Shown here: in pieces, positions 30,371-32,360 of the stretch
Position numbering within the stretch: the stretch's first letter is position 1
How the letters are laid out: each line of letters begins with the position of its first letter
Source of the DNA: Quercus robur
Lineage: Eukaryota; Streptophyta; Magnoliopsida; Fagales; Fagaceae
DNA length: 64,000 bases
Reading direction: 5' to 3'
Assembly: GCF_932294415.1 (NCBI RefSeq)
Contig: NC_065536.1
Coordinates: 31,329,354 to 31,393,353, forward strand
Translations under genes and position numbers: made by a program
The notes under the pieces: generated by a model
Databases searched by the model: none
Seen by the model: the letters and a program-made list of their open reading frames with translations, nothing else
Told to the model about the DNA's origin: nothing

Positions 30371-30881
30371 TTAATCAGATCGTGGAAGGATCACACTGAG
30401 GGTAACGCTGACTGCAAATAGGAAGATTAGAGGCCCGGTAAAGTTCCGAACAAGTGCTTCTTGGTTGCGCTCTAGAGCTAAGGAAATGAATATTTCAACA
30501 AATACTGTTTCAGCAGGGCATATTGCCAAGAGGAAGATGACCATGCTGACAAATCCGTGCCATGGAAGGAGCATTGCTCTTGCAAAATTTTCTGCTTTTG
30601 GGAAGCGATACTTCAAGAAAGCAAACACCCACTATCAATGAAAGAAAGAAAGAACAAGGATCAGAAAAAGAAACCTAATGAACAATATGTTTGGTTAATC
30701 TGGAACAAATATTATTTCGGTAGGAAAAGGTAGTTCAAAATTTTGAAATGTGCACAACTTTTATCATATCAAATGAAGTTGGTAAAATCATAAAATTCTA
30801 AACAATGCCTAAAACCAAACACATTAATAGGTTTGTCAAGGAAGCTTTGGTGTACAAGTAAATGAAAAGGGATATACCTGC

Positions 30882-31914
30882 TGTTAATGGTCATTTTCGC
30901 GACAAATTTTATAGTTCGACGGAATTACTAAGCTCAATTGCTTAGCGGGTCCGACTAATGTATTTTATCAGTGTATTCTGCTCTGTTGCGTGGCCCAAGC
31001 CCATGCGAATAGTTGGAGAATTGAATAGGAATGGTTTTGGTGGGTGTGGGTTAGTTCCCATTGGATATTTTACATAGGCCCAGCCTGTGTGTGCCACGAA
31101 ATGGGCTAGGGACACTGGGGGCATCTAGGGCCCATCAAGGAGGTCCAATGTCAGAAATTTCCACCCCAAATTTGACTCCATGCTCTGTGTGACTGTGCCC
31201 CTGATTTTCAGCCCAGCTCCATTTTCCCACACCAAGGCAGCTGACTCTAAGAAAAAGACTGAGCAGCCTAGCCCACTCAGCCACCTAAATGTAGTCTCCC
31301 AAGGCCTACAAAGACCAGAGGCAGCAGCTATAAAGATGAAACAACTTTGTTTTCCAAAATCATGCAAAAAGCAACCAAACCTTTCCCTAAGCATAAAACA
31401 TAACACACCAAGTCATAAAGATAGCATCTGAAAGGTCCAAGGCCTTCCTCCCACCTAAGAACTGGTCACAAGCATCCCCTAAAGCTTGGTATAAATATCC
31501 ATCACCAGCCCACAAGAAAGGGGGAGGTTTTTCACACAAAAAACCCAAAAACTTTGACACAAAAAGCCCAGTCAGCTACCTAGTGTAGGGACGATTTTGA
31601 AGGGTTGGGGGTGAAAATATTGAGATAGAGGAACTCTCCTTCTCTTGCTCGGGACCTCCTTCAATTTCTTCCTCTGTGTGACTGCGGGCTGAAATTTCTG
31701 ACTCATGAATATACAGTTTCTGCGTTTTCTTATGTTTTCATTTTTGTGTTGGTTTCTTTTTCCATAAAGCACCATTAGCCTTTGTATACCCCACATTGTG
31801 AATTTTGGGCTTGGCTCTCCAAATAACTAACGAATTTGACGAACCCAAGGGGAGTTTTGGGCTCATCTCTGCAATCTTGGCCCTTGTTGCACACAAAAAA
31901 AAACGTCCCCGACA
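30882..31914 (+). mobile_element. solo LTR (1033 bp) inserted at a splice donor
   Basis: Begins TGTTAATGGT and ends CCCCGACA (TG...CA), flanked by a perfect 5-bp duplication CCTGC (30877-30881 and 31915-31919). A TATA-like tataaatat at 31490-31498 fits LTR promoter architecture in + orientation. The segment is distinctly more GC-rich than the b561 introns and has no gag/pol. It is inserted at the end of b561-B exon 3, so that the donor G comes from the duplicated target and the T from the LTR's terminal base. Confidence 0.8.
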
Positions 31915-32360
31915 CCTGCAAACCAAATGAGCAGATGGTAATGATGCCCAGCCAGGAATGTAAGGTGAGCATTTCCTCAACATTAAAGGCATGGTTAAAC
32001 ATGAAAGCCGCATAAACTCCCAAAATTTCAAGCAGAAGAGCTATTAGATGTAGTGTGAGGTGTACAAGTTCCCGTGACGTTCTTCCTGCCTGGACAGTCT
32101 TGTTTGCCATAACAGCTGCTTCATATGATTTTAGATTAGTGTGTATTTACTGTTTACATTTTTTCAAAATATAGATTTCCCATGGAAATGAACAGTAGCG
32201 GCTTAACATGCAAGTCAGACCACCTGACTTGCAAAGAAATGTACATATACATTTGCCAAAAAAATATTATATGCTAAATTAACCTATTATAACTACCCTA
32301 ATAAAAATTTTGAACACTCTGACTTGAGAATTACAAAAATTTAGGTTCAACAAAAATAAG

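Follow-up and report, generated by a model that had tools for sequence, protein, structure and literature searches.

The exon 3/intron 3 junction of a cytochrome b561 gene on the minus strand (hereafter b561-B) carries a 1,033-bp solo LTR of the Tat clade of Ty3/gypsy elements, which lies antisense to the gene and whose outermost base completes a GT splice donor together with a G of the target site. An original-looking donor is kept on the far side of the LTR, 1,038 bp away. The mechanism of the insertion is ordinary. The chimeric GT follows from the TG end of the LTR and one insertion phase. The account that we favour, with a probability of roughly 0.7 as a whole, is that a Tat element inserted antisense to the gene, collapsed to a solo LTR and created the near donor by chance, and that both donors are used, with the far one favoured. 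The window, i.e., the whole stretch of DNA analysed, covers 64 kb (C3:31329354-31393353) of a 785.7-Mb assembly, in which the LTR was searched genome-wide. The coordinates of the features are collected in Table 1.

Table 1. Features of the b561-B locus and of one full-length copy of the LTR family (positions refer to the window, except in the last row).
Feature	Position	Strand	Remarks
Solo LTR, TG...CA	30882..31914	+ (own sense strand)	1,033 bp, 44.5% GC, Tat-clade Ty3/gypsy
CCTGC target site duplication, far side (GCAGG on the gene strand)	30877..30881		sequence
CCTGC target site duplication, near side (GCAGG on the gene strand, containing the end of exon 3)	31915..31919		sequence
Near donor GT, CAG|GTGTCGG	31914..31915	-	G = target (31915), T = LTR complement base 1 (31914)
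Far (ancestral) donor GT, CAG|GTATATC	30876..30877	-	sequence
Formal acceptors in tandem where LTR and duplication meet: ACAG (last base 30881), GCAG (last base 30878)	30878..30882	-	pyrimidine low
b561-B exon 1	38535..38695	-	1-bp deletion vs paralogue A, in-frame TGA 38618-38620
b561-B exon 2	38379..38424	-	
b561-B exon 3	31916..32115	-	
b561-B exon 4 with stop	30371..30631	-	
Tandem paralogue b561-A	24041..27350	-	intron 3 donor CAG|GTAACAC
Tandem paralogue b561-D	47560..48810	-	intron 3 donor CAG|GTAACAA; 3' end approximate
L032 ORF domains	RT_RNaseH 89-190; RVT_3 253-362; rve 643-739		Pfam, one ORF

On the plus strand, the locus reads ...GGATATA|CCTGC|TGTTAATG...CCCCGACA|CCTGC|AAACCAAA..., with the LTR starting at TGTTAATG and ending at CCCCGACA. 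On the minus strand, exon 3 runs ...TGCAG|GTGTCGGGGA on the near side, and the far side reads ...CCATTAACA|GCAG|GTATATCCCT. In the GCAGG duplication, taken on the gene strand, the fourth base is the end of exon 3, while the near donor consists of the fifth and of base 1 of the LTR complement. The sequence-only reading had described a solo LTR between perfect 5-bp CCTGC duplications and a near donor, CAG|GTGTCG, that is half target and half LTR; the sequence and a blastn search within the window show that both descriptions are correct to the base. Indeed, blastn retrieved no second LTR copy within the 64-kb window (the best other match scoring 28.3 bits), so that the insertion is solo: one TG...CA LTR flanked by its target duplication and devoid of internal sequence. 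The far copy of the duplication is followed on the gene strand by TATATCC, and the junction before the insertion would thus have been TTTGCAG|GTATATCC. The proposal that the far copy keeps an original-looking donor (CAG|GTATAT) agrees with the paralogues, since exon 3 ends with CAG and intron 3 starts with GT at the same codon in all six that were read. These comprise A and D in the window, one on C2, one on C38 and two on C1, a seventh exon 3 match (C1:1511745) being left out. No empty allele was seen in the assembly, which the exon 3 flank matches once, at its own locus.

b561-B is one of three tandem b561 copies found on the minus strand of the window. Its exons 3 and 4 encode a cytochrome b561 domain (PF03188, 90.1 bits for a Pfam cut-off of 23), and the nearest solved relative is the 4o6y chain, a probable transmembrane ascorbate ferrireductase 2, which we take to be from Arabidopsis. 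The protein encoded by exons 3 and 4 is continuous with this chain across the junction. Intron 2 of b561-B (32116-38378) is about 6.3 kb long, compared with about 1 kb in A, and a tRNA-Met (CAT) gene is located at 29821-29892, just downstream of b561-B.

The genome search returned at least 52 matches to the LTR (40 of 411 candidates scored), and among the matches listed 11 others are almost full length at 93-99% identity. Positions 30882-31914 are thus part of a repeated LTR family, as had been supposed, and this family includes full-length members, such as the pair C5:14093515/14106498, which is flanked by the same ACAGG duplication on its two outer sides and has PBS/PPT-like sequence internally. 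Among the best 12 places, seven LTRs stand alone (the window copy, L002, L003, L004, L008, L010 and L011), all with a perfect 5-bp duplication, and four form two element pairs with matching outer flanks (ACAGG for L006/L005 and ACCGG for L012/L009). Another place, L007 (1501-2532), presents a 5' LTR followed by PBS-like sequence, and no 3' partner was found among the matches listed. L013 and L014 (C35 and C4; about 1501-2515) have identical printed flanks on both sides although they are located on different contigs; judging from these flanks, their LTR seems to lie within some larger unit that is itself duplicated or repeated.

The orientation of the LTR was read from the full copies. A primer-binding-site-like sequence, TTTTGGCGACTCCGCTGGGGAGTC, directly follows the 5' LTR L006, differs by one base at L007 and is TTTTGGCAACTCCACTGGGGAGTC at L012, and a purine-rich tract precedes the 3' LTRs (GAGGAGGGCTAA in L005, GAGGGGGGCTA in L009). 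These flanks give the LTR a plus direction, antisense to b561-B, and a sense orientation was rejected on the same adjoining sequences. Regarding the clade, the full copy L032 has six ORFs of at least 150 aa, four of which were searched against Pfam, two of these four being without a Pfam match. The reverse transcriptase is in one ORF, and the next ORF contains, in this order, RNase H, RVT_3, H2C2 (zinc-binding) and the integrase core. According to PMC6317226, the presence of two RNase H domains is peculiar to the Tat lineage, and in Ogre and Retand the extra one is located between RH and INT. In L032, the one full copy examined, a second RNase H-type domain occupies this same place, and its RVT_3 domain may correspond to the aRH. 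The window LTR has a K2P distance of 0.0078 to each of its two nearest copies and three bases that are distinct from all six nearest copies, and the insertion is therefore recent.

From these observations, we propose that a young Tat-clade Ty3/gypsy element would have integrated antisense to b561-B, with a 5-bp stagger, GCAGG, across the exon 3/intron 3 border, and that recombination between its two LTRs would later have left the solo LTR. As an LTR of this type starts with TG on either strand, a duplication ending in G always produces G|TG and with it a GT. The near donor is then a by-product of the LTR ends and the insertion phase, rather than a repair. The claim that insertion in a single phase leaves two competing donors holds for the two GTs, which are 1,038 bp apart, but not for the uniqueness of the phase: two GTs remain in five of the 13 phases tried (target site duplication ending at +1 to +5), and the +1 phase is the only one of the 13 in which the near GT is built from a target G and an LTR T. 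A rough estimate with assumed inputs (about 1e5 donors, 1e4-1e5 LTR insertions and 7.9e8 bases) yields approximately 1-13 exact-phase events per genome before selection and, therefore, one such insertion is unsurprising.

How the transcript is spliced is the part of the account where alternatives have to be weighed. We suggest that both donors would be used in any pre-mRNA, with a preference for the ancestral one on the far side, and that the near one would yield a minority of normal-length mRNA. Alternatively, the near, LTR-completed donor could be the one in use, in which case the LTR would simply lengthen intron 3 and leave the mRNA unchanged, which we consider a possible but less probable outcome. 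The U1 pairing energy, a crude proxy and not a species donor weight matrix, is compatible with such use, as the near donor (CAG|GTGTCGG) has -6.7 kcal/mol and the far one -7.2 kcal/mol, both within the range of the six paralogue intron 3 donors (-5.6 to -8.3 kcal/mol; A -8.0, D -8.0, C2 -5.6, C38 -8.3, C1 -6.9 and -8.3), and two of these six are also non-A at +3. Exons 3 and 4, moreover, are open and have changed no more than in the paralogues. Against near-donor use, the far donor is slightly stronger in U1 pairing, although the gap of 0.5 kcal/mol is too small for ranking the two. Among the 70 GTs in 31960-30632 (exon 3 end, LTR and intron 3), the far donor comes second and the near donor third. 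The top-ranked GT lies inside the LTR at 31454 (TAG|GTGGGAG on the gene strand, -8.7) and is a possible third donor, as predicted from pairing. The base composition also argues against the near donor: the sequence downstream of it is exon-like, with a GC content of 0.445 in the LTR, 0.441 in exon 3 and 0.293 in the remaining intron 3 (A+T of 0.555 in the LTR vs 0.71 in the remaining intron). Plant intron definition depends on A/U-rich introns. It is this contrast between an exon-like LTR and an A/U-rich remaining intron 3 that leads us to favour the far donor. By the far donor alone, the mRNA would gain 1,038 nt with the LTR, and translation would proceed 46 codons into the LTR before a premature stop.

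The splice outcome may, however, be without consequence, since exon 1 of b561-B is frameshifted. Compared with paralogue A, it has a 1-bp deletion (window 38618-38626), frame 0 stops after 25 codons, and the assembly contains no open frame from the ATG of b561-B. The gene is probably a recent pseudogene, unless the exon 1 base is an assembly error, and selection would then be blind to the way in which the copy is spliced. That b561-B is expressed and functional, with the frameshift being an assembly base error, appears unlikely to us. It would fit a frameshift that is a single-base difference, exons 2-4 that are open and exons 3-4 that show no acceleration; nevertheless, the deletion site is not a homopolymer (GCCAAGCAG), and the intron 1 donor, AAT|GTCAGT, has a weak U1 pairing of -1.3 (that of D is also low, -1.6). 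In exons 3-4, private changes, counted in columns identical in the other three sequences, are 7/34 in B, 9/36 in A and 10/37 in D. The absence of excess substitutions in exons 3-4 of B shows that either the decay is recent or the exon 1 deletion is an assembly error. The NG86 dN/dS values (0.45/0.87 for A-B, 0.60/1.05 for A-D and 0.51/2.31 for B-D) are too near saturation to date the decay, and YN00 yielded values for one of the three paralogue pairs.

Splicing from the far donor need not be a dead end, because the LTR plus one duplication (31915-30878) is a formal GT...AG intron. Its removal would take out 1,038 nt and rebuild CAG|GTATAT exactly and, in this formal reading, would give the normal exon 3-exon 4 junction if it followed that of the outer intron. 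A duplication that starts and ends in G would turn a TG...CA LTR into GTG...CAG, and every order of removal would lead to the normal mRNA, or to one lengthened by a single Gln codon were splicing to take the first of the two acceptors in ACAGCAG. Yet we consider it very improbable that this stretch is spliced out separately, whether ahead of the ancestral intron or following it. The zero-length exon, the formal GT...AG and the exact reconstruction of the donor are in its favour, and precedents come from introners, which draw their splice sites wholly or partly from duplications (PMC9860276), and from the Ty1/copia insertion in pepper CCS, which is largely spliced out (PMC7475241). In the latter, however, 1 kb of the gene was removed too and the product is truncated (PMC7475241). 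The acceptor is pyrimidine-poor (T 0.18 and Y 0.41 in -25..-4, compared with T 0.41-0.64 in eight other b561 acceptors); the own acceptor of b561-B exon 3 is also low (T 0.27 and Y 0.41 in -25..-4). In addition, the mature mRNA would be the same as that from one-step splicing, and no plant LTR example of exactly the same kind was found in the literature searched. There is a very small chance that the LTR and one duplication constitute a ready-made nested intron, whose placement at the old donor would let the gene tolerate the insertion. If this held generally, LTRs at exon-intron borders would be preferentially kept when they had inserted in these phases, and plants would gain nested introns from them. 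Returning to the favoured account, with two competing donors, the locus is one chance insertion, probably in a decaying gene copy. It shows cleanly, in a natural setting, that splice signals can arise from the TG...CA ends of an LTR combined with a short target duplication, and it yields a testable rule for the insertion phases in which a gene stays spliceable. In the literature, judged mostly by titles and the openings of abstracts, we found no plant LTR insertion that completes a donor with its own T.

Several known systems resemble this locus in part. The family shares with the Tat clade (Ogre/Retand type) the order of reverse transcriptase, RNase H, second RNase H-type domain and integrase in the full copy, and its LTRs have 5-bp target duplications; the window locus differs in being a solo LTR alone, and the assignment is at the Ogre/Retand-type level, without a split between both. 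In pepper CCS (PMC7475241), a plant LTR-retrotransposon insertion likewise supplies GT/AG sites to the host transcript, but it is almost 7 kb long, lies in an intronless gene and has 1 kb of host sequence removed with it. The [D1,2] stwintrons of fungi (PMC12403724) also have an intron nested at the donor of another one, which is placed between the first and second donor bases without sign of duplications. In contrast, the formal inner intron here begins at the same G as the outer donor, and membership of this class was rejected, as the sequence separating G(+1) from T(+2) starts with TG and the GT...AG begins at +1. A likeness in sequence form also exists with introners (Gozashti et al., 2022, PMC9860276), in which the GT is part duplication and part element, the AG comes from the duplication and excision would leave the length unchanged. 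The splice sites of our locus also derive from the element and its duplication, as a formal sequence match only. Nevertheless, most introner families described there carry DNA-transposon signatures, whereas the element here is an LTR, and what we observe is a single insertion at the edge of an intron already in place instead of a family of new introns.
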